Virus record (IMG/VR): IMGVR_UViG_3300009285_000866
Span: 1-27,647 of that record
Strand: one strand, 5' to 3'
DNA: 27,647 nucleotides
From: a virus
Below the pieces are notes generated by a model that was not told the DNA's origin, ran no database searches, and worked only from the letters and a program-made list of their open reading frames with translations. Shown one piece after another: positions 1,638-27,621 of this stretch. Numbering within the stretch: position 1 is the stretch's first letter; each line of letters opens with the position of its first letter. A program made the translations under genes and the position numbers.

Positions 1638-3899
1638 ATGAATTCCGTCTTCAACTGCCTTCCGAAACAAAAGCTGTTTCTTGAGGAGTGCGATAAGAAG
1701 AGATTCATTTTGTTCAACGGGGGGGTGCAGTCGGGGAAATCCCGCAGCGGAGCGTTGCAGGATTGGAGGGCGGTGATCGAAAACAAACCGCCTCACCTCG
1801 GTTGGGTGGTCGCCGGTTCTTATGCCCAGACGGAAACGGTGATGGGGGATTTCGAGGATTTGCTTCAGGGCGGCATCAAAAGAAAAACGACGATGGAGGG
1901 GGCGCGAGTCATCTTCGATATCTGGAATGGGCATCGGGTCGAATTCAGGACGGCTAGAAATCCGGATGCGCTTCGCGGCCCGCGTGTGGGCTGGGTTCAC
2001 GTCGATGAAGGACGTGAAGTCTCGAAAGAGTGCATGGACGTTCTTTATGGCCGGGTCTTGCGATACAAGGGAAAAATCTGGGTCACGAGCACGCCGAGCG
2101 GAAAACACTGGTGGGGCTACAAGGATTTCTATTTAAGAACCTGCCGCAATACGCCGTGGTTTGATGAAGACTATGGCTACATCCATTGCACAAGCCTTGA
2201 AAACTGGCATCTTGATCCGAAGGAGATCGAAAAACTCCGGGCCAAGTATACCGGAGCCTTCGCCGCTCAGGAGCTTGAGGCTCAATTCGTCGGATATGAG
2301 GGGCTTGTCTACAAGGACTTCGACCCCGGCGCTCATATCTGCGCGCCCGTTTCCCACACCGACCCGAACATCAAGCGCGTCCTCGCCGGTATCGACTTCG
2401 GACTTAACGACCCGTTCGTTCGCTTGATCGTCGCTTTGATCGACGGACGATGGAAAGTAGTGGAAGAATACTACTGGGACCAAGGCGGCAAGACGGTCGA
2501 TCACCATGCGCCCTATCTTCTGGAATCGGCTTGGAATAGCAAGATCGACGTTTGCTATTCCGACTACCACGACCCCGAAGGACAGGCCACGCTGCGGCGG
2601 TATGGGATTGCCAATGTTTCTGCCCCTCACCATGAAATCTATATCGGCATCCATGAGGTGACTCGGCTTCTAGGAACGCGGCTTAATGACGGCTTTCCGG
2701 CGTTGCAGGTGTGTTCCAATTGCCCCAAGACGATAGAGGAGTTTGGGCTTTATCGTTATCCGGAGGAGAGGGAGACGAAGAACGTGGGAGACAAGCCGCT
2801 GGATAAGTACAATCACTGTTTTGTCGCGGGCACGGAAATCGAGACGGATAAAGGGCCGCGTGACATCGAGGAAATACTTGAAGACGATCTGGTTTTAACG
2901 AGGGACGGATTCCATCCCGTCCGCAAAGCATGGATTACACGCCGGGATGCGCCTACGGTTGTTGTCACGCTTGATGATGGAAGGACACTGAGGGGTACGC
3001 CGGAGCACCGAGTGTGGGTGGATGAGACGGGATGGATAACGCTTGACACGCTGCGATATGGAGATAAGATTGTTACATGCAAAGAACGGTTTATCGCGGC
3101 CGAATCTTCAGGTTGTATCGCGGAGAGCGATATTTCAGCCGTGGAACGAAACGGCTGCATCGCGTCATCTGGAGTGACGCAAACGGCCCGATTCCTTCGG
3201 GATATCATGTACACCACTCAAACGGCAATCCCCTTGACAATCGGCTTGAAAACCTTGAGTTGTTGCAATCGAAGGCCCACGCGGGTTGCCACCGCCCAAC
3301 GGGCGAGCGGTTGCGAAAACTACGGGAGCATCTGGACGGAATTCGGGATAAGGCGGCTAGGTGGCATCGGTCGAAAGAGGGAAGACGCTGGCATGGCGAA
3401 AACGCCATCAAGGTTGCGGCAAAGAGAAAGAAAAGGCGTGCGGTCTGTTCCCGGTGTGGGGGGTCTTATTGGAGCAAAGCCCCAAAGCGGTTCTGCTCGA
3501 ACGCTTGCAAGTCTGCGAGTCGCCGCGCCGATGGGCGGGATAGAGTTTCCAGACAATGCCAGATATGCGGGATTGGATATTATTCCTGCCGATTCAAGCC
3601 CACGGAAACTTGCGGTCGCTCATGTGGTGCGCGTTTCCGATGGCAAGCCCGCCGATGTTTACGCGCTTCACGTTAAGACGTGTCACGAATTCTTTGCCAA
3701 TGGAATTCTTGCGGCCAACAGCCTCGACAGCTTAAGATACGCTCTTTTTGGCGAGAATCATTCCGTCTATCGTGGACCGAAGAAGGAAGAGAAGAAGGAG
3801 CCGGGCCCCGGAACCTATGGCTGGTGGCGGAAGCGCCGGCATATTCAACCTGTGGGATTGTTTCCCCGAAGGGGGAATGGATTCTCGATTCTTGGATAA
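1638..3899 (+). CDS. terL: large terminase (TerL) precursor containing an intein
   Basis: This is the motor ATPase and nuclease that packages DNA into the prohead. The 753-residue precursor has Walker A GGVQSGKS (28-35), Walker B HVDEG (D123, E124), the coupling motif TSTP (150-153) and the RNase H-like nuclease start GIDFG (D253). An intein fills residues 394-694. Joining residues 1-393 to 695-753 gives 452 residues, normal for TerL, and rebuilds the last nuclease motif, DKYNH/SLDSLRYAL. The intein therefore splits the nuclease site, and the unspliced protein should not cut DNA. ATG 1638 follows the 49-residue gene by six bases. The N-terminal 250 residues look intact. No small subunit is recognisable nearby. 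The family call is firm; packaging type (cos, pac or other) cannot be told. Confidence 0.95.
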   Translation: MNSVFNCLPKQKLFLEECDKKRFILFNGGVQSGKSRSGALQDWRAVIENKPPHLGWVVAGSYAQTETVMGDFEDLLQGGIKRKTTMEGARVIFDIWNGHRVEFRTARNPDALRGPRVGWVHVDEGREVSKECMDVLYGRVLRYKGKIWVTSTPSGKHWWGYKDFYLRTCRNTPWFDEDYGYIHCTSLENWHLDPKEIEKLRAKYTGAFAAQELEAQFVGYEGLVYKDFDPGAHICAPVSHTDPNIKRVLAGIDFGLNDPFVRLIVALIDGRWKVVEEYYWDQGGKTVDHHAPYLLESAWNSKIDVCYSDYHDPEGQATLRRYGIANVSAPHHEIYIGIHEVTRLLGTRLNDGFPALQVCSNCPKTIEEFGLYRYPEERETKNVGDKPLDKYNHCFVAGTEIETDKGPRDIEEILEDDLVLTRDGFHPVRKAWITRRDAPTVVVTLDDGRTLRGTPEHRVWVDETGWITLDTLRYGDKIVTCKERFIAAESSGCIAESDISAVERNGCIASSGVTQTARFLRDIMYTTQTAIPLTIGLKTLSCCNRRPTRVATAQRASGCENYGSIWTEFGIRRLGGIGRKREDAGMAKTPSRLRQRERKGVRSVPGVGGLIGAKPQSGSARTLASLRVAAPMGGIEFPDNARYAGLDIIPADSSPRKLAVAHVVRVSDGKPADVYALHVKTCHEFFANGILAANSLDSLRYALFGENHSVYRGPKKEEKKEPGPGTYGWWRKRRHIQPVGLFPRRGNGFSILG
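2817..3719 (+). mobile_element. intein in terL with an out-of-frame endonuclease
   Basis: A 301-residue Hint-type intein (precursor residues 394-694) in the terL frame. Block A starts at Cys1 (CFVAGTEIE). Block B has TxxH in GTPEHRVW, followed by a typical GWITLDTLRYGDKI. Block F is VYALHVKTCHEFFANG, and block G ends ILAAN before Ser+1. The penultimate residue is Ala, not the usual His. Between blocks B and F the terL frame encodes about 180 residues with no recognisable domain. The same DNA read in the -1 frame encodes an intact HNH endonuclease (3077-3676). Ser+1 is the first residue of the C-extein SLDSLRYAL. Intein boundaries are precise because the TerL motif is rebuilt exactly. Confidence 0.92.
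3077..3676 (+). CDS. HNH homing endonuclease nested in the terL intein (other frame)
   Basis: A 199-residue HNH endonuclease encoded wholly inside the intein but in the -1 frame. It would cut intein-free terL alleles and so spread the intein. The HNH core is GYHVHHSNGN (H46, H47), then DNRLENLELL and H68. The C-terminal part has two zinc knuckles, C124/C127 with C140/C144 and C161/C164 with C179/C183. It has its own ATG at 3077, where the endonuclease-like sequence begins, and its own TAA at 3674-3676. A GGAG at 3060-3063 could serve as a ribosome site, though its 13-base spacing is long. The codons for C179-C183 overlap intein block F, so conserved residues of both proteins share DNA. The family call is strong; independent translation is inferred. 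Confidence 0.87.
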   Translation: MQRTVYRGRIFRLYRGERYFSRGTKRLHRVIWSDANGPIPSGYHVHHSNGNPLDNRLENLELLQSKAHAGCHRPTGERLRKLREHLDGIRDKAARWHRSKEGRRWHGENAIKVAAKRKKRRAVCSRCGGSYWSKAPKRFCSNACKSASRRADGRDRVSRQCQICGIGYYSCRFKPTETCGRSCGARFRWQARRCLRASR

Positions 3900-4523: not shown

Positions 4524-6563
4524 ATGGCGAGACGGAATCGGACGGACAAATCAGTGAAGGTGGGGGGTTCTGCCAAAAGATCAAAATACGAATTGTGGAA
4601 AGCGCGGCTGGATCGTTCACACCGGCTTTGGGACGATTACCGGACTGTAATCCAAAAATACTACGATTCCTACGAAGGCTATTTCGAGGAACAGGACAGC
4701 AATCCCAACTACATCCATATCCCTCTCGCGTTCGCGCACGTCAAGTTCCGCATTCCTTCCCTGCTTCTCAAGAATCCTTTCGTGAAAGTCACGGCCCGCA
4801 CTCCATTCGAGCGGGTCGATAGCCCCGGCGATTTCATCGCGTCCCAGTCTCAGGGCGTGCCTTCCTTGAATCCCGAAGGCCAGCCAGTGCGGGATAATGT
4901 TCTGGGCGCGGAGATTCTTGAGAACGCCTTGAATTACGAATTGAAGGCAATGCGATTCAAGGCGCAAGCAAAGCGGGCGATCATGGACGCGCTCTTTTGC
5001 TATGGCGTTATCAAGGTGGGCTACCACACGGAATACACCTACAACCCGGCTCAAACCCCCCTTGAGATTCAAGAAGCTGAATTGGCGGGAAGAAGCGATC
5101 GGGAAACCTTGGAATGGAATGCTTCGGTCAAGCGCGAAAGTGTTTGGGCCATCCGGGTCGATCCGTGGGATTTCCGATTCGATCCCGACATAAAAATGCT
5201 GGATGAGGAATTGTCTCAATGCCGCTGGGTGGCATTCAGAAGCATCCGCCCACTGGACGACGTGAAATCCGATCCTCTTTACAAGAATACAACCCTGCTT
5301 GAAGGCACCGCCTACCCCGACGATTTCGATTCGGATGAGGGAAAGAAGTCTTCCCAGCAGGATGCGCTCGAGGAGCCTTACGTCATTCTCTGGGAAATAT
5401 GGGACAAGAAGGAGCAGAAAATTTATGTCATTGCGGAGGGGCATGACGATTTCCTTCGGGAAGATGATTGGCCTTACGATATGGATGGTTTCCCTTGCTC
5501 ATTTTTGGCTTTTAACGATCTGCCTACTTTCCGTCGTTATCGCGGCATTCCTCAAGAACGCCGCGTCAGAGGCCCACTCCCGATTTCTGATCTGGCGGAA
5601 TGGCATGAGTTGAATCATATCGTCAATATCACCGAGTCGATGGCGGTGGAGTCGTATAAACGGAAGCTGGACAAGCTGGCCGTTCAGGAAGGAACGATAG
5701 ATGATGAGGAACTTGTTAATTTGACGAAGCCCTTGAGCAAGGGCGTTGTCAAAATGAAAGACCTTGCTGGAATCAAGGAGTTGAAGTCAACCCCTTCCAG
5801 CGGCGAGGAAAACGCGCTGATACAGCGGATGATGAATTGGGTCTTCCAGATTTCCGGCGTGTCGGCGCAACAGCGCGGAGTCAACACCGAATCGACCGCT
5901 ACCCAAAGCAATATCGTTCAGTCTCATGTCGAGGCCCGGCAGGCGGAAAGCGTTGACCGCGTGAAGGATTGGGCGCTGGTGGTCATTCAAAAGCTTGCCC
6001 AGTTGATGAAACAGTTTTTCGACAAGGAGCGGATTGTCCCGGTTATCGGCAGGGAGGATTTTGAGTGGATTCCCTACACCCGTGAAAACATTCAGGGCGA
6101 ATACGATATTAACATCGAGCTGCTTCCTTATGACCCCACCAAGAAGGAAGTCAAGGTCAAGCAGTTGACGGACCTTCTCGCCATTGCGCTCAAGTTCCCC
6201 AATGGGACAATCCCAAATGGAATGGGAGGATTTACCCAGGTCAACGTTGCCAAGCTGATCGAAATGCTTTTCCGGGAAATGGTCGATGGGGTAAGCATTC
6301 GGGAATTCCTTTCCCCCTCAATCGCTCCCCCAGCGAATCCCGCCGGGATGCCTCCTGGATCCGCCCCCTCTGGGGCACCCGGCGGGCCCGGGGGGGACGG
6401 CGCTCCCCTTCCTGGCGAAGGGAAGGGGGCGGACAAAAGAAGCATGGTTGCTTCTCAGGGGGCGGGGAATGCGCTTGTTCAGGCGTTGCGGCAGGATGGG
6501 GGGCCGCAAGCCGTATCGACTTCGATCAATACCGGGGCTTCGTCCCCAAGCCGGGGGTCTTGA
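4524..6563 (+). CDS. portal protein
   Basis: The 679-residue protein forms the dodecameric ring at one capsid vertex through which DNA is packaged and ejected. Position after terL and before scaffold and coat, length, and typical segments support the call: an N-terminal region with DSNPNYIHIPLAFAHVKF, a central VDPWDFRFDPD, the helical region around ISGVSAQQRGVNTESTATQS, and a low-complexity Gly/Pro/Ala tail from about residue 600. Length and order fit the long portals of P22-like podoviruses. It starts at ATG 4524 with a weak upstream AAGGAC and is probably coupled to the basic protein before it. The next gene begins one base after its stop. Confidence 0.85.
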   Translation: MARRNRTDKSVKVGGSAKRSKYELWKARLDRSHRLWDDYRTVIQKYYDSYEGYFEEQDSNPNYIHIPLAFAHVKFRIPSLLLKNPFVKVTARTPFERVDSPGDFIASQSQGVPSLNPEGQPVRDNVLGAEILENALNYELKAMRFKAQAKRAIMDALFCYGVIKVGYHTEYTYNPAQTPLEIQEAELAGRSDRETLEWNASVKRESVWAIRVDPWDFRFDPDIKMLDEELSQCRWVAFRSIRPLDDVKSDPLYKNTTLLEGTAYPDDFDSDEGKKSSQQDALEEPYVILWEIWDKKEQKIYVIAEGHDDFLREDDWPYDMDGFPCSFLAFNDLPTFRRYRGIPQERRVRGPLPISDLAEWHELNHIVNITESMAVESYKRKLDKLAVQEGTIDDEELVNLTKPLSKGVVKMKDLAGIKELKSTPSSGEENALIQRMMNWVFQISGVSAQQRGVNTESTATQSNIVQSHVEARQAESVDRVKDWALVVIQKLAQLMKQFFDKERIVPVIGREDFEWIPYTRENIQGEYDINIELLPYDPTKKEVKVKQLTDLLAIALKFPNGTIPNGMGGFTQVNVAKLIEMLFREMVDGVSIREFLSPSIAPPANPAGMPPGSAPSGAPGGPGGDGAPLPGEGKGADKRSMVASQGAGNALVQALRQDGGPQAVSTSINTGASSPSRGS

Positions 6564-6564
6564 T

Positions 6565-6852
6565 ATGCCCCTGTACGCTTACGATTGCCCCAATGGGCAT
6601 GAAGTAAATAGATTCGTGGTGGGGAATCCCTTCAGACGGGGTTTCAAAACGCCCAAAAGAATACCTTGCGATTTTTGCGCGAAGGTTGCGATACGAAAAG
6701 AAGTCAATCGTGTATCCATGCAGGTGGATCATGAATATATCAGTGAAAACATCCACCCGGAAGGAAAGCCGGTTCTGATAAAGAACCGGAGACACAAGAA
6801 GGAATTGATGAGGAAGTATGGATTGCGCGAAAAGGCCAATCCTTTCGGATAA
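6565..6852 (+). CDS. small FmdB-like zinc-ribbon protein
   Basis: A 95-residue protein beginning MPLYAYDCPNGHE, which resembles the start of the FmdB-type zinc-ribbon family (usually MPLYEYxCxxCG). The second pair is CDFC at about residues 35-38. The first half site has one Cys and a His (CPNGH) in place of CxxC. A longer in-frame start exists upstream but would overlap the portal by over 100 bases. ATG 6565 lies one base after the portal stop and gives the family N-terminus, so I chose it. Role in the phage is unknown; a structural or regulatory zinc protein is possible. Confidence 0.65.
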   Translation: MPLYAYDCPNGHEVNRFVVGNPFRRGFKTPKRIPCDFCAKVAIRKEVNRVSMQVDHEYISENIHPEGKPVLIKNRRHKKELMRKYGLREKANPFG

Positions 6853-6872
6853 AACCAGTCCCCAATGAATCA

Positions 6873-6889
6873 TCCCGCATGTTGCGGGA
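6873..6889 (+). promoter_or_regulatory. intergenic hairpin before the scaffold gene
   Basis: TCCCGCA (6873-6879) pairs perfectly with TGCGGGA (6883-6889) around a 3-base loop. CCCC just upstream and AGGGG at 6896-6900 may extend it. Only CTTCTC follows, so it is a weak terminator at best. It may stabilise the capsid-gene transcript or mark a processing point. Confidence 0.4.
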
Positions 6890-6922
6890 CTTCTCAGGGG
6901 TGGAATTTTCTGGAGTTGCGGA

Positions 6923-7759
6923 ATGACCAAGCCCTCCAATGTCGCCCCCGCCACTGGCGATCCGGCGACGGAACCGGCTGAGGACGAGTTGGACGTCGAT
7001 CCTGCGGTTTCCGATGGGACTCCCGATGGGGAATCTCCCGCGGAATCGGATGATCCGGCGTTGTTCAAAGAAGAGGACTTGAAGACTCTTCCAGAAGGAG
7101 ACGCCAAGCGTGTGCGGGGATTCCAGTCCACGTTCACGAAGGCGCAGCAGGATTTGAAGCGGAGGCAGAAAGAGACGGACGAGTTGAATGGCAAGCTACG
7201 CGAACAGCTTGAGCTTTTGGCCGCCGCCCAGGGTTCGGATGATCCGCCCACTGCCTCAACCGCGATCAAGTCAAGAATGCAGTCGCTTTTAGAAAAGGCG
7301 GCTCCCGGAGACCGTGAAACGCTCAAGGAGCTTGCCGAAGCCATTCGGGAGGACATGCGGAGCGAGTTCGCCCCTGTTACGGAATCCATCACCCAAACGC
7401 GATTGAATGTCGAGATCGAGGCGGCGCGTCAACGGCATCCGGACTTCGATTCTGTTATGAGGTCCCAGTCCGTTCAAGCCTTGGTCAGACGGCATCCCGA
7501 AATCGCGTCGCCGGAGCTTGCTTATCGTATCCTCAAGTTCGAGCAACTTGAACACGATAACAAAACGCAAGGTTCCGAATTGGCGAGGATTCTGGAACAG
7601 AAAAAGCGGGCGGCTCAAACCGAAACCCCCGGAGGCCCTTCGGGTGACATGGTTGATACCGATTGGTTTAACCGTCTTTCGAAGGAGAAGCGCAAGGCAA
7701 TGACGACTGCACAACTTTTTGATCTGACGGAAAGAAACAAGGAAAAGGGTTCGCGATAA
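6923..7759 (+). CDS. scaffolding protein
   Basis: Likely guides coat assembly into a prohead and then leaves. The call rests on position directly before the coat gene and on a typical composition. Residues 1-55 are acidic, with many Asp, Glu, Pro and Ser. Residues 60-140 are a charged coiled coil (TKAQQDLKRRQKETDELN). The C-terminal 40 residues are basic and helical, as in scaffold tails that bind coat. At 278 residues it is within the usual range. It shows no protease motif. ATG 6923 has TGGAG at a 7-base spacing. Sequence alone cannot separate scaffold from another internal head protein. Confidence 0.75.
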   Translation: MTKPSNVAPATGDPATEPAEDELDVDPAVSDGTPDGESPAESDDPALFKEEDLKTLPEGDAKRVRGFQSTFTKAQQDLKRRQKETDELNGKLREQLELLAAAQGSDDPPTASTAIKSRMQSLLEKAAPGDRETLKELAEAIREDMRSEFAPVTESITQTRLNVEIEAARQRHPDFDSVMRSQSVQALVRRHPEIASPELAYRILKFEQLEHDNKTQGSELARILEQKKRAAQTETPGGPSGDMVDTDWFNRLSKEKRKAMTTAQLFDLTERNKEKGSR

Positions 7760-17793: not shown

Positions 17794-20700
17794 TGGCAAG
17801 AAGAAGACGGCGGCCAGCCTCAGAGTCAGAATCTCAGGCTTCGCCCGGAATCCTCAGTCGGCTTGGTAGTGGCACTCTTGCTACTCTTGAATCCTCTGCC
17901 ATACAGGTTCCGTTGCACATCCTCGATACTCCACGCCGTATCGTTGCCGAAGCGGGGAATGAATTTCTCCGTCAAGTCCAGCCGATCACCCCGGAGGATC
18001 AAAATAGAAGCATATTCGATTCGGCAAAGCAAATCGTCAAAGCAGGATTAAAACCCTCAAGGGCAAAGGCTCCAAGTGGATTTCAAGTTGCCAGAGGAAT
18101 TAGAGGGGGCGGCAGCAATTGGTCGAATATACTTTGGGGAGCGGGCCTTGAGTTGGGTCAAGACCCCACCACATTCCTTGGCGTTGGCTTGGGTACAAGG
18201 GGGGCAAGGCTCGTCACGGCTACTGGGCAGAAGGTATTAAAAACCGCAAAGGGCGAGGGGCTTTTCAAGCAGATATTTCAAAAGGAGCTTATCAAGGGAT
18301 TGACCAGAGAAGTCGCGGAGCTGTCGGCAGAGAGAAAACTGATGGGTCTTGCGGAAAAGACTCCGGGATTGATCGAGAAGGCTGGCCTTACGTTTACTCC
18401 CACCCCGCTTCTTCCCTTTGGCCCTGTTATCAAGGTCAAAGGAACGGAAAGGGCGGTGGAGGCCGCCGCCCAGCCGTTCAAGTCGCTCTGGAAGAGGATC
18501 AGCCCAAACTCCGAAGCAAAGTCGATTATTGCGGAAACCCTGCATAGGGAGAGAGTACGCAGGGGTGCTCAGGTGGCGGAGCAAATCAGGCTGGCCGCCC
18601 CCATGCTTAGGGCCGCAGCGCGAAAAGGGGACGATCCGATAGGTATCATGACAATGGTTACCAAGGCGGTTGAGGCCCCCGCCGGGACTCCTGCCTACCT
18701 TCGCGCACTGGAAGACGTACCTGATTATGCAAGGCCATACGTCGAGAGTTTGAAGTCAAGCCAGAAACAATTCCTGAAATCGGAACAGTATCTCGGCGTT
18801 CCAACATCGGAGCTTGGAGCGGCGGCAAAGGCTAAAATCATCAAGCGCGAAATGGACCTTGGGAATGTCGTGAAGGTATTGAGGGCGGCGGGAGGAAGCG
18901 TGACGGAAGCTGCGCCCAAAGACAGGCTGTCAATTTACCGTTCCCTTGAAGAGGCGGTATCGGGTCCGAAGGGCCGCGCTGGAATGCGCGAAATGAGGGG
19001 GGTTGAAAGGGGAATCAGGGGAATTGAGAGGGTTGAAGGCAAGTCGAAAAATGTGACTCTTGCAAGAGTGTCGAAGTTCATAAACAAGTTCATCGACAAG
19101 ACAATGTCCGATGCGGCGAGAAAGGTTGAAGGGCTGCACGGAAAGGGAATTGATACGGCAAAGGTGACTGCGAAGGCCGCACAGGTTCAATCTATACAGG
19201 GTGACATTCGGCAGATTGCAAGCGGAAAAATTTCGACCACAGGGCTGTCGGCATCTGAAATAAAGTCCCTTAAATCATCACGCGGGGCGCGGCAGTACCA
19301 GGAGCAGATGAAGTTGAATTTGAGCGAAAATCTAGTTGAGACCAGGGCAGACTTGAGGTCTTTGGGTCAAGAGGCTGTCGCACAAAAATCGCTGAAAGGG
19401 CTGAAGCAGTTTGTTCAGTCTGTTTTACCGAAAGAGGCGTGGTCGGAAGTTTATTCAGCCATAGACCGCCTTGAATCCTCGATCAACAATACTGTTACTC
19501 GCGCCGCCGGTAGAATGAAGAGCGCCAGGGACGTATTCGCTGCGACTCGCAAGGAGGTGGACACGGTTATTGATCGGATCGACCTTGCCCTTAAAACCGA
19601 AAAATCCCGCCTTTTTGGAAGGCAGGAGGCAGTGGGCGAGAGGCTGATTGCGACGATTGGCGATGAAATCCAGGCATTGAAGGGGGAGTTGGGTGACTAC
19701 GATTATTTCGAGCATTACCTTACTCCCGCATTCAGGGAATTTCTGGACAAGAATCCAACCTATCGCGGGATAAGCAAAATAGTCACGACTTCTCACGCCA
19801 GCCAACTTCACCGGAAGCTGTCAAAGTATGACATTGCAACCGCGAATCTTGAATCGAAGTCGGGAAGACTGTTCCCCGGATTCAATGAGGATATCTTTGT
19901 AACCGATCCGCGTGTGATTCAAATCACCCGCGTCTGGAAACATATTGACACGACCAACGCGGCGCAACTGGCGATGGACCTTCGGAAATTCGGGAAGTTT
20001 GCGGATGCGGAAGAAGTCATTGCCAATCCTAAGCTGTGGACCGCATTCCCCTATGAACATCCTTCCATTCCCAAGGGGTTGCTATTTCCAAAGGAAGTGG
20101 CGGATGCCGTTGCCAAAATGCGGGACAAGACAAGGATGGCCGGATCGTCATGGAAAGTCACCAAGGCTTTCGATGCGGCCAATAACTGGTTTAGAAAGGC
20201 GACCCTATTCCCGTTTCCGGGGACATGGGGACGAAACCTTATTAGTGCGATATCCGTCAATGCGATGGAAGGATCGACAAATCCACAAGATTACATCCAA
20301 TCCTTCCGGGCCATTACGAATGCCCACGGTACGATTGACGTGGGGAAATGGGGGAAGGCCACCTATAACGATATCCGTCAGTGGGCGACTGAACATGGAG
20401 TTATTGGCGGAAGGATCGGCGGCATGGAGGCAATGGCCGGGGCCATGTCTCCCGAAGACCAGCTTGCCGACCTTTTGCTTGGCAGCCAAGGGAGGGTCAA
20501 ATTCCTTGGCGCTCCGGTTGAACCAAAATCCTTTGCCGGTCGAATTGCGACGGGGACAAGCTACGCCGTTGGCGAGCGTAATCCAGTCATGCGTCTTGGC
20601 GCATATGCGATGAATTTTGGGGACGAGGGTACGAGGCTGGCTCATTTTATTGCCCGGATCAAGCAGGGAGATACGCTGGAGGCGGCTTCAAATTCAGCCC

Positions 20701-22168: not shown

Positions 22169-22216
22169 ATGCCCGTTAGTGACCTGCCAAGAGGATCGTC
22201 TAGGGGGATGGTATGA
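22169..22216 (+). pseudogene. orphan 15-codon gene start left of the endonuclease
   Basis: ATG 22169 with a good ribosome site, AAGGG (22156-22160), opens a frame MPVSDLPRGSSRGMV that stops at 22214-22216, overlapping the endonuclease ATG at 22213. Just past that gene, DNA at 22628-22645 reads IPVPDL before an in-frame stop, and CCCGT..TGACCT matches on both sides at 11 of 14 bases. It looks like the original start of the following tail gene, cut off by the endonuclease insertion. Confidence 0.4.
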
Positions 22217-22626
22217 AACCGGATGAGGGGACAAAACAGCGGTGTTATGTTTGCAAGCGCACGAAGAACACTAGTTGTTTTAGTCTAAAAAACTCTGGCA
22301 AGTGGAAGGGCCACTTCAGGTATGACTGCAAGCGATGCAATGCAATCAGTAGCAAGAGATATGCCAAAGAAACTGGGTATCACAGAAAACACAAATATGG
22401 CATTGGGCTACACGAATACGAGAATATGATAAGAACCTGCGGGGGAAGATGTGAGCTTTGTGGGGAATTTCCAAAACCAAATAAAATGTTACATTTGGAT
22501 CACAATCACAAGACAAGAAAGGTTCGGGGTCTTTTGTGTCCGTCCTGTAATCTTGGGCTGGGATTATTCAAGGATAATCCAGCAACACTTCAACTGGCAA
22601 TTAATTACCTTCTAAGGAGAAACTGA
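22213..22626 (+). CDS. endonuclease VII-like HNH protein
   Basis: A 137-residue protein with the endonuclease VII signature: zinc pairs CYVC and CELC with a later CPSC, and the catalytic MLHLDHNHKTRKVRGLLC. A first Cys-rich half (CYVCKRTKN, YDCKRCN) precedes it. In T4 this family resolves branched DNA, but free-standing copies in phages often act as mobile homing-type genes. This copy splits two parts of a tail gene (orphan start 22169-22216; next gene at 22673), which supports the mobile reading. ATG 22213 has AGGGGGA at a 4-base spacing. The family call is firm; mobility is inferred. Confidence 0.8.
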   Translation: MKPDEGTKQRCYVCKRTKNTSCFSLKNSGKWKGHFRYDCKRCNAISSKRYAKETGYHRKHKYGIGLHEYENMIRTCGGRCELCGEFPKPNKMLHLDHNHKTRKVRGLLCPSCNLGLGLFKDNPATLQLAINYLLRRN

Positions 22627-25063: not shown

Positions 25064-25441
25064 ATGCCCATCATTTCAGTCGATACCACGGATGGAGTCA
25101 TTCAACCGGTAAACGCAAGGACGGATACTTCTTTGCGTATCCGGGTGCTTGACCCGGTAGGCGCGGCAAAGAACATTACAAGCTATGCTTTCCGCGCAAC
25201 CTTCCGGCTGAATAACGGTGGGAGGGTAATCAAGAATTATCATACGAGCACAGGGGGGATAGCCTTAACTTCATCTACCAATGGCAGATTGACTATTACG
25301 GTTGATGCCAGCGACCTGCCCCCGGCTCCGTTTGGATTTTTGGAATTGGTCGAATATTCAGGTGGGAGCTTGGCCGGTGATCCAACCGACCGCTTTCGCT
25401 TCCGCGTCCCGATTTCTGGTGGCAGCGGGGAAAGCTATTGA
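25064..25441 (+). CDS. small beta-sandwich tail or fibre protein
   Basis: A 125-residue protein with an immunoglobulin-like strand order: DTSLRIRVLDPVG, SYAFRATFRLNNGG, GRLTITVDASDLP, FLELVEYSGG and FRFRVPISGG. The pattern resembles N-terminal attachment domains of phage baseplate upper proteins, but it stands alone here. The excellent AAGGAGG (25050-25056, 7-base spacing) picks ATG 25064 over the much longer in-frame frame from 24803, which is a shadow of the lipoprotein gene. Its stop overlaps the radical SAM ATG (TGATG). Confidence 0.55.
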   Translation: MPIISVDTTDGVIQPVNARTDTSLRIRVLDPVGAAKNITSYAFRATFRLNNGGRVIKNYHTSTGGIALTSSTNGRLTITVDASDLPPAPFGFLELVEYSGGSLAGDPTDRFRFRVPISGGSGESY

Positions 25442-27621
25442 TGTCGATTTCAGACGTGGCCGAAAGACTGGTGTTGGATGACTCCAAGATTCAATACCAC
25501 ATGGATCGAGTGAAGCAGTGGGATCGGGGGGAACGGATTGCTCCCATTACGATTGACATGGCCTTAACTCAAGCGTGTACCGCCGGATGCGGTTTTTGCA
25601 TCCGTGGAGATCAAAGAATTCTTCTTTCAGGTGGTTTGTCAGTACCGATAAAAGAAATTAAAACTGGCGACTGTGTTGTCTCTCTGGGAAAAGACGGGTC
25701 TCTTTCCACATCAATCGTCACCGCGTCTTGGATGAGTCATCCCAATAAAAAAACATTGACAATTTTCGTGCAAGGCGATATGCTTGTTTGCACATATGAT
25801 CACCCAATCCTCACAAGACAAGGTTGGAAGCTGGCGGGTCAACTCACCCCCGGCGAGAAAATCGCATGTATCCCCGGAAGGTCGCGCCGCCATGTCCGCA
25901 AAGATGATTGGCGACAAAAACCCGATGAGGAATCCAGACGTTGTCAGGCGTCAAGGCGAAACCATGAGGCTTCGGCACGCCAAGAAGATTTCAGAATGGT
26001 CGAAACGCATGTGGAAGGCTGGACGAATGAACCCGACGGGCATGGGGATGGAAAGCAGGAAAGCCGCCGCCAAGAGAATGAGAGAAAACAATCCGATGCG
26101 ACGCAAGGAGGTTGCAGAGAAATCACGGAGTTCCTTTTCGCCGGAAAGAAGGAAGTCCTTGTCGGAAAGAATGAAATTGTCTTGGAAAACCGGGGCAATA
26201 AAGCCAAGGACTTATGGACAGGGAATAAACAGTCAGGAGAAGATATTGAATGCCACGTTGGCCCCGATGGGATTTACTTACATGGGGGACGGAAAGTTTT
26301 GGGTCAATCCGACCAAGAGCGGTATTCGGAGAAATCCAGATTTCATGTACACGGCGCAGAAAGATTTGCGCCTGGTTGTTCTCTTGAATTCAACGTATCA
26401 TCACCGGGACAAAGAGAAATTCGATCAGGAAATGGAAGATTACATTGTGGCAAAATGGAATGTGTTGGTTCTTTGGTTAAAGAACCGGATTACGTTGCTT
26501 CATCGAGAAGAAGTAGAGAAGATCGTCTGCGGGGAGTTGTCTATTGTAAAGTCGAATCTATTGAGGCTTCCTCAAGTTGCCCAGTATACGATATTGAGTG
26601 CTGGCCGCATCACAATTTCATCGCCTCTGGCGTAGTTGTTCATAATTGCTATGCCGCCCTTCAAGCTAACAAGCCAAGGCGTATCACAACGGAGATCATG
26701 CGGCAGTTCCTGGATGACTGCTTTGAGATCGGCGTCAAGGCGGTATCGTTCGTGTCGGACGGCGAATCAACCCTGTCCCCCGCCTATGCCCCCTCCATAG
26801 AACACGGCCATTTCATAGGGTTGGATATGGCCTCTGGGACGTGGGGGGGTCCACTAACCAGGCCGATCATCGACCGGGTATTGCCCTGCCTGACATACCT
26901 CCGATTCAATATCAGTGGTGGAACCCCCGAAAGAACAGCCGAAATCATGGGGATCAGCATCCCGCAGCATCTAAAGGTGCTGGAAACGGTCCGCTATTGC
27001 GTCGATAGGAAGGCGGAAAGGGGTCTAGGAGTGACGATAGGCATCCAGATGGTACTTCGACCCCAAGATGCAGACCAGATCATCCCATTTGCGAAATTAG
27101 GCGTTTCTCTTGGCGTAACATATGCCATAATTAAGCACTGTTCAGACGATGAATCTGGTAGCCTTGGGGTGGATTACGACAAATATCCCCTATTTTACGA
27201 CAAGCTGCAAGAGGCGGAATCATTAAGCACGGATACAACCAAAGTGGTAATCAAGTGGAACAAGATCAAACAGGGGGGGACAAATCGAAGACCCTACGAC
27301 CGATGCTTTGGACCTCCATTCATCATGCAGATTTCAGGCTCTGGTTTGGTGGCTCCGTGTGGAATGTTGTTTAACGAGAAGTACAGCCGATTCCATATCG
27401 GGAACATCTGCAAAACCCGATTCAAGGATATCTGGCAATCGGAGAAATACTGGGAAGTGATGAATTTGATTGCCGATCCGAACCGGTTCGATCCTCGAAA
27501 GGCTTGCGGGTCATTGTGTTTGCAGGATCGCACCAACGTGGCTCTGTGGAATCACAAGGTTAACGGCGTTTCGCTTGTTGAACCCTCCGAAGCCGATCCC
27601 GCCCATGTTAATTTCGTTTAG
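25441..27621 (+). CDS. radical SAM/SPASM enzyme precursor containing an intein
   Basis: A 726-residue precursor of an iron-sulphur enzyme that uses S-adenosylmethionine radicals. The CxxxCxxC motif is C46, C50 and the third Cys, which is split off by an intein (residues 53-402); Cys403 becomes the third ligand after splicing. The spliced form is 376 residues. Downstream, SFVSDGESTL and YLRFNISGG fit the partial TIM barrel. The C-terminal SPASM-type region has C622, C640, C689 and C693 (RCFGP, VAPCGM, ACGSLC) for extra clusters. ATG 25441 overlaps the previous stop. Substrate is unknown; peptide or glycan modification is plausible. It could still be an anaerobic-activating type enzyme. Confidence 0.85.
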   Translation: MSISDVAERLVLDDSKIQYHMDRVKQWDRGERIAPITIDMALTQACTAGCGFCIRGDQRILLSGGLSVPIKEIKTGDCVVSLGKDGSLSTSIVTASWMSHPNKKTLTIFVQGDMLVCTYDHPILTRQGWKLAGQLTPGEKIACIPGRSRRHVRKDDWRQKPDEESRRCQASRRNHEASARQEDFRMVETHVEGWTNEPDGHGDGKQESRRQENERKQSDATQGGCREITEFLFAGKKEVLVGKNEIVLENRGNKAKDLWTGNKQSGEDIECHVGPDGIYLHGGRKVLGQSDQERYSEKSRFHVHGAERFAPGCSLEFNVSSPGQREIRSGNGRLHCGKMECVGSLVKEPDYVASSRRSREDRLRGVVYCKVESIEASSSCPVYDIECWPHHNFIASGVVVHNCYAALQANKPRRITTEIMRQFLDDCFEIGVKAVSFVSDGESTLSPAYAPSIEHGHFIGLDMASGTWGGPLTRPIIDRVLPCLTYLRFNISGGTPERTAEIMGISIPQHLKVLETVRYCVDRKAERGLGVTIGIQMVLRPQDADQIIPFAKLGVSLGVTYAIIKHCSDDESGSLGVDYDKYPLFYDKLQEAESLSTDTTKVVIKWNKIKQGGTNRRPYDRCFGPPFIMQISGSGLVAPCGMLFNEKYSRFHIGNICKTRFKDIWQSEKYWEVMNLIADPNRFDPRKACGSLCLQDRTNVALWNHKVNGVSLVEPSEADPAHVNFV
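25597..26646 (+). mobile_element. intein in the radical SAM gene with an out-of-frame endonuclease
   Basis: A 350-residue Hint-type intein (precursor residues 53-402). Block A starts at Cys1 (CIRGDQRILLSGG). Block B has TYDHPILTRQGW with T and H of TxxH, then LTPGEKIACIPG. Block F is YDIECWPHHNFIASG, and block G ends VVVHN before Cys+1. The splicing frame between blocks B and F encodes about 195 hydrophilic residues with no recognisable domain. The same DNA read in the +1 frame encodes a NUMOD3/Vsr-like endonuclease. Boundaries are exact because removal rebuilds the CTAGCGF/CYAAL iron-sulphur motif. Confidence 0.92.
25796..26635 (+). CDS. NUMOD3 + Vsr/EDxHD-like homing endonuclease nested in the intein (other frame)
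   Basis: A nuclease frame inside the second intein, +1 relative to it. NUMOD3-type repeats come first (SPEGRAAMSAKMIGDKNPM, MNPTGMGMESRKAA, NNPMRRKEVAEK). A Vsr-like or EDxHD-type core follows: SQEKIL (Glu), GFTYMGDGKFW, RRNPDF (Asp), a hydrophobic strand, TYHHRD (His and Asp) and WNVLVLW. The start is uncertain: ATG 25796 lies in block B DNA, while ATG 25892 has GGAAGG at a 10-base spacing but cuts into the first repeat. The last 40 codons look like a shadow of intein block F. It differs in family and frame from the terL intein enzyme. Independent expression is inferred. Confidence 0.75.
   Translation: MITQSSQDKVGSWRVNSPPARKSHVSPEGRAAMSAKMIGDKNPMRNPDVVRRQGETMRLRHAKKISEWSKRMWKAGRMNPTGMGMESRKAAAKRMRENNPMRRKEVAEKSRSSFSPERRKSLSERMKLSWKTGAIKPRTYGQGINSQEKILNATLAPMGFTYMGDGKFWVNPTKSGIRRNPDFMYTAQKDLRLVVLLNSTYHHRDKEKFDQEMEDYIVAKWNVLVLWLKNRITLLHREEVEKIVCGELSIVKSNLLRLPQVAQYTILSAGRITISSPLA

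Follow-up and report, generated by a model that had tools for sequence, protein, structure and literature searches.

Background

Intein nucleases are normally described as in-frame fused domains, but at the locus reported here a single stretch of DNA encodes a predicted self-splicing protein plus a separate nuclease. Fractured genes, reportedly described by Dassa et al. in 2009, are said to hold split inteins with a free-standing Vsr/EDxHD nuclease gene between the intein halves. HNH nucleases hidden out of frame have been described in insertions of phage methylase genes, explicitly without splicing domains (the ShiLan domain), and the ShiLan insertion is predicted to stay in the protein (Arsenault, Gosselin, Gogarten 2025, PMC11855218). 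For split inteins, a free EDxHD nuclease is already on record (Dassa 2009, cited in PMC12350094), and EDxHD enzymes and NUMODs have been reviewed (PMC3943268). The locus described here lies in a 27,647-nucleotide stretch of viral DNA (IMG/VR virus record IMGVR_UViG_3300009285_000866, positions 1 to 27,647; henceforth the window), in which a radical SAM gene is interrupted by an intein whose interior also carries a nuclease gene in the +1 frame. We consider it likely that this is a mobile intein whose DNA yields two products, a self-excising Hint protein and a free nuclease. A full-text literature search, with subscription papers mostly outside it, turned up no description of an out-of-frame nuclease in a complete intein.

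A complete intein in a radical SAM gene

The host gene (25441..27621; all features of the window described here with .. coordinates are on the plus strand) encodes a radical SAM/SPASM protein (PF04055, E 0.0023; PF13186, E 3.4e-9) in a single open frame, 25438-27621; the open reading frame (ORF) is listed from TTG 25438, and ATG 25441 overlaps the stop of the preceding gene. Codons C54 to N403 of this ORF form an intein of 350 residues, C1 to N350 (25597..26646), supported by a match to the Pfam Intein_splicing profile (PF14890, residues 61-403 of the host ORF, E 3.2e-12), by catalytic residues and by empty sites in relatives; an initial annotation of the sequence had placed an intein with its Hint blocks in the radical SAM frame at exactly these coordinates. 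The residues of a class 1 intein are all present: C1, block B T66-Y-D-H69, H349-N350 and a nucleophilic Cys+1 at 26647. Insertion is just before the third Cys of the host CxxxCxxC cluster motif, and therefore splicing would rejoin C47-x3-C51-x2-C404.

An AlphaFold2 model of the intein is confident over residues 1-95 and 313-353, covering the N-terminal part of the Hint fold (25597..25881; predicted local distance difference test, pLDDT, mostly 80-91) and its C-terminal part with blocks F and G (26533..26646; TIGR01443 intein C-terminal region, E 1.7e-5). The model aligns with the Mtu RecA intein (3ifj) at Z 22.8 over 134 residues, with a root-mean-square deviation (rmsd) of 1.4. By its motifs and predicted fold, 25597-26646 is a complete class-1-like intein. 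The profile of an intein-containing Rv2578c radical SAM family (NCBIfam NF038136) aligns across the intein, E 1.1e-17, which suggests that bacteria have a related intein at a comparable position of a radical SAM gene. Many phages (L011, L015, L017, L020, L022) have two tandem radical SAM/SPASM genes of the host-gene family.

A nuclease gene nested in the +1 frame

Taking the host gene as frame 1, a second ORF occupies frame 2 (+1 offset) inside the intein, with a maximal extent of 283 codons (25784..26635) and homologues in the same layout in two other viral records (L006:5392-6228, L026:3698-4702). The probable translated gene begins at ATG 25892 (25892..26635, 247 residues), where Shine-Dalgarno pairing is found and which coincides with the boundary between Hint fold and linker. 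The two frames overlap for 247-283 codons, so that the figure of about 195 given originally was an underestimate; the third forward frame, said to hold no comparable open stretch, has 16 stops across the nested ORF.

The N-terminal part of the predicted protein consists of helical NUMOD3-like DNA-binding repeats (25892..26188; GDKNPM and RENNPM motifs), recognised when L006, L026 and further NUMOD3-type proteins are aligned with it; the NUMOD3 profile itself (PF07460) does not match the window nuclease and matches one of eight relatives (E 1.2e-8). It is followed by a Vsr/EDxHD-like catalytic domain (26228..26554) with E152, D186 and H207, identified by model and profile matches. The AlphaFold2 model has a mean pLDDT of 70.6, mostly 80-92 in the catalytic part. 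When candidates from Foldseek were realigned, its best three chains were I-Bth0305I (3r3p, Z 9.9, 92 residues, rmsd 2.2) and two of Vsr (1cw0, Z 9.7; other chain, Z 9.4). A profile of the nuclease family, which includes free-standing relatives that strengthen it, gives E 1.7e-8 against the catalytic domain of I-Bth0305I and E 1.3e-4 against Vsr. E152, D186 and H207 correspond to E25, D51 and H69 of Vsr. E152 and D186 are invariant in the eight relatives, and H207 is kept in the three nested nucleases. Similarity to the nested ORF of L006 (32% identity, BLASTP E 3e-41) means that the homology is not due to chance. Judged from homology and predicted fold, the +1 ORF is a NUMOD3-like plus Vsr/EDxHD-like nuclease gene, as was first proposed, and the relatives that bear this out come from independent assemblies.

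Relatives with the same layout

L006 (IMGVR_UViG_3300020123_000077) has the same host gene, insertion site and +1 offset, with an intein ORF at 4968-7256 and a nested ORF at 5392-6228; the inteins of L006 and the window are 27% identical (E 1e-35). In L026 (IMGVR_UViG_3300050821_017996) the intein lies before the third motif Cys of a B12-binding radical SAM gene, again with a nested nuclease at +1, and the host gene has 16 uninterrupted relatives of up to 90% protein identity. Among 24 IMG/VR relatives of the window host gene in which the site is covered, 23 are empty at the same codon and L006 is the one occupied. The host-gene tree neither supports nor contradicts a shared single invasion of the window and L006. 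An intein-profile scan of viral contigs matched L006 and nothing else, a genome contig search with the nested nucleases recovered just one free-standing NUMOD3-type protein, and none of 50,697 phage records was matched in tblastn by any of the three nested EDxHD-like nucleases.

Relatives with an in-frame nuclease, which the initial annotation had named as evidence that would tell against it, do exist but only at a distance: L027-L031 carry Vsr-like nucleases in frame within inteins, whereas those of the two closest relatives, L006 and L026, are out of frame. In L027-L030 the in-frame NUMOD3/Vsr-like nuclease belongs to an intein of a Mu-F-like head protein (2462-4657 in L027), and in L031 (3296-5152) to one in a QueE-like radical SAM gene, where the intein also lies at a cluster Cys. 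Comparison of these genomes supports an out-of-frame nuclease inside an intact intein as a layout that recurs in independent assemblies and in other genes.

Selection on the two frames

Openness of a second frame is by itself weak evidence; the window also contains a chance alternative ORF of 222 residues at 19945-20613. Expected stops in the splicing frame were therefore estimated by synonymous resampling of the nuclease sequence. This null predicts 13.4 stops in the window, 21.0 in L006 and 5.15 in L026, and none is seen in any of them. Calibrated on the ordinary genes of the window phage, the null over-predicts about 1.65-fold at the +1 offset (~185 seen, 308 predicted). With calibrated nulls, ~8, 20.6 and 4.3 stops are expected in window, L006 and L026, respectively, with P of ~3e-4, 1e-9 and 0.013. 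No 247-codon segment of ordinary genes lacks stops (0 of 2,564; minimum 3). Between the window and L006, mismatches in the nested ORF at nuclease codon positions 1/2/3 are 0.54/0.43/0.65, a coding-type substitution pattern in the nuclease frame as read from the alignment; the most conserved position, 2, is position 3 of the intein frame. On this statistical evidence, the nuclease sequence is maintained by selection, and the splicing frame is held free of stops and no more.

The intein frame over this DNA encodes a linker, residues 96-312 (25882..26532), which AlphaFold2 predicts to be disordered (pLDDT <50 throughout). It coincides almost completely with the nuclease gene as counted from ATG 25892, and the nuclease therefore sits at the usual insertion point of intein nucleases, but out of frame. 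The hydrophilic, flexible loop expected at the outset agrees with this model and with the grand average of hydropathy (GRAVY) of -1.26; the null expectation is -1.11 +/- 0.11, and it is the nuclease sequence, read in another frame, that makes the linker hydrophilic. Similarity between linkers equals the null given the nuclease alignment (P 0.51, 0.41, 0.52). Since it is no greater than the nuclease forces, the linker appears to be under selection for openness and, on present data, for nothing else.

Parallel inteins in terL

A second intein of the window, in terL (1638-3899), contains a nested HNH_3 nuclease at 3077-3676 (E 7.5e-17) in the +2 frame, so that offset and nuclease family both differ from the radical SAM case, as had been noted. 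The same +2 layout, with Hint and HNH_3 matches, occurs in terL of four further records: Acinetobacter phage Highwayman (L080, OZ038341), Tetrasphaera phage TJE1 (L081, HQ225832), Rhodobacteraceae phage LS06-2018-MD07 (L082, OP947163) and the unannotated record MT838676 (L083). The earlier argument, that neither a single assembly error nor a common origin can account for both inteins, is upheld, as the +1 EDxHD and +2 HNH classes both have relatives in which the offset of the class is unchanged. Few stops are expected at +2, and terL openness is for that reason modest evidence: the combined Fisher P is ~3e-4 (from uncalibrated values and ignoring phylogeny), and calibrated single values range over 0.008-0.19. 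A viral contig scan with the terL HNH nuclease gave no matches.

In terL of Lactobacillus phage CL2 (L088, NC_028835.1; 506-2690), the N-terminal intein half (Int-N) ends in a stop and is followed by an HNH gene, and the C-terminal half (Int-C) plus a short C-extein lies, unannotated, in another frame; this version looks fractured and would probably splice in trans. In vir335 there is a mini-intein without nuclease. Taken together these forms suggest a series, readable in either direction, in which an intein houses an autonomous nuclease gene and its splicing frame either runs open past that gene or is interrupted to give a split intein. The window also has a free-standing Endonuclease VII-type ORF (22213-22626, PF02945, E 1.4e-21) between structural genes, possibly its third mobile nuclease.

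Start sites of the nested genes

A putative ribosome-binding site, GGAAGG (25876..25881), lies 10 nt 5' of ATG 25892 with a pairing energy of -6.3 kcal/mol; for internal ATGs of the window phage, this falls between the 5% quantile and the 10% quantile (-5.9 kcal/mol). Comparable sites precede TTG 5392 of L006 (GGAG, -6.4 kcal/mol), ATG 3737 of L026 (AAGGA, -6.2 kcal/mol), ATG 3077 of the window terL HNH gene (GGAGA, -6.4 kcal/mol), ATG 2776 of L082 (GGAGGGA, -10.0 kcal/mol) and GTG 2770 of L083 (GGGGA, -7.1 kcal/mol), such that pairing is -6.2 kcal/mol or stronger in six of the eight nested genes; it is weak at the starts in L080 and L081. In L006 (5382-5392), the window terL intein (3060-3077) and L083 (2750-2770) the codons for Gly-Asp in a conserved Hint motif (LxxGDxI-like) supply the ribosome site. 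Independent initiation of the nested nuclease genes is likely on the basis of these signals.

Proposed mechanism and alternatives

We propose that one ribosome translates the radical SAM frame across the entire element and that the Hint domain of the product folds with its long disordered linker; the intein would then excise itself and restore CxxxCxxC, as its intact motifs and fold suggest. A second ribosome would initiate within the intein, with ATG 25892 as the probable start codon, and produce a free-standing NUMOD3-like, Vsr/EDxHD-like homing endonuclease. This enzyme may cut intein-less alleles at the CxxxCxxC codons, after which repair would copy the intein in, steps suggested by the sporadic distribution and the empty sites. 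The HNH nucleases at +2 in terL inteins would represent the same solution.

Several observations weigh against this proposal. Foldseek by itself returned nothing at E <0.001 for the nuclease model, and the window nuclease sequence by itself has no Pfam, NCBIfam or PHROG match, such that its assignment depends on relatives and on the model. Where Vsr has H64, the window nuclease has N202, that of L006 has H and that of L026 has S; because of N202 the activity of the window nuclease is uncertain, and for want of this second His we call it Vsr/EDxHD-like rather than a confirmed EDxHD member. At the flanks of the L026 intein the dip in identity is modest, where a clear co-conversion tract was expected, and the openness of the window terL HNH frame gives by itself P 0.14.

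N202 and the missing Pfam match of the single sequence also favor an unlikely alternative, in which the nuclease frame is a decaying relic of an in-frame or free nuclease, displaced by insertions or deletions and carried unselected in a functional mini-intein. Such a relic is argued against by an ORF intact over 247-283 codons at the same offset in three divergent carriers, by coding-type substitutions in the nuclease frame, by retention of E152, D186 and H207, and by the ribosome sites. Programmed frameshifting is known in phages, and a nuclease on the same strand at +1 could be made by +1 ribosomal frameshifting as a fusion of N-extein, Int-N and nuclease instead of a free protein. We regard this as improbable, given good start sites within the nested ORFs and the lack, where the frames overlap, of a host-frame stop that could stall the ribosome; such a fusion would moreover lose the C-extein.

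Assembly or sequencing frameshifts that broke an ordinary in-frame nuclease intein come to mind for a metagenomic contig, the more so as in-frame NUMOD3/Vsr-like inteins exist (L027-L031), but this would take a pair of compensating errors, the host frame too runs open across the nuclease, and relatives contradict the idea by having the same layout (L006, L026 and, for HNH, cultured phages), making it very unlikely. An RNA-spliced intron with its own nuclease and incidental Hint motifs is scarcely credible: nucleases of this kind do sit in introns (I-Bth0305I), but the Hint fold is matched at Z 22.8, and Rfam gives no match in the window at gathering threshold, nor in 25400-26850 at E up to 1.

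Comparison with known systems

Returning to the two-product intein, we think it probable that inteins with overprinted nucleases are a recurrent phage class of two or more lineages (radical SAM genes with an EDxHD-like nuclease at +1, terL genes with HNH at +2), each with a fixed offset and with ribosome sites often drawn from conserved Hint codons, and that they connect free-standing nucleases with in-frame inteins and with fractured split ones. Conservation of the layout across divergent phages marks it as a possible route between these forms and mini-inteins. The carriers are overlapping genes that occur in nature, and the position of the disordered linker suggests a site at which inteins can accommodate ~200 inserted residues. 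Annotation misses the nested nucleases: the three annotated phage genomes (Highwayman, TJE1, LS06) list only terL, with no separate feature for the nuclease.

The ShiLan insertions resemble the window locus in their homing-type endonuclease placed out of frame, in the open host frame and in their sporadic distribution, but they lack an intein splicing domain or its motifs, whereas the window has a complete Hint domain; the host gene is another one and, relative to the radical SAM case, so is the nuclease family. The predicted catalytic fold is shared with I-Bth0305I and Vsr (Z 9.9; 9.4-9.7), as are equivalents of their E, D and His, but the window nuclease has N in place of H64 and overlaps an intein rather than lying in an intron or standing alone. 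Fractured genes likewise have a Vsr/EDxHD nuclease as a separate gene between intein halves, but their host gene and intein are in two pieces that trans-splice, whereas the splicing ORF of the window is one open frame across the nuclease. With canonical full-length inteins the window element shares the Hint domain, insertion at a conserved motif and a nuclease following the N-terminal Hint part; it differs in that their nuclease is an in-frame domain, whereas that of the window lies in another frame and is predicted to be a separate protein.
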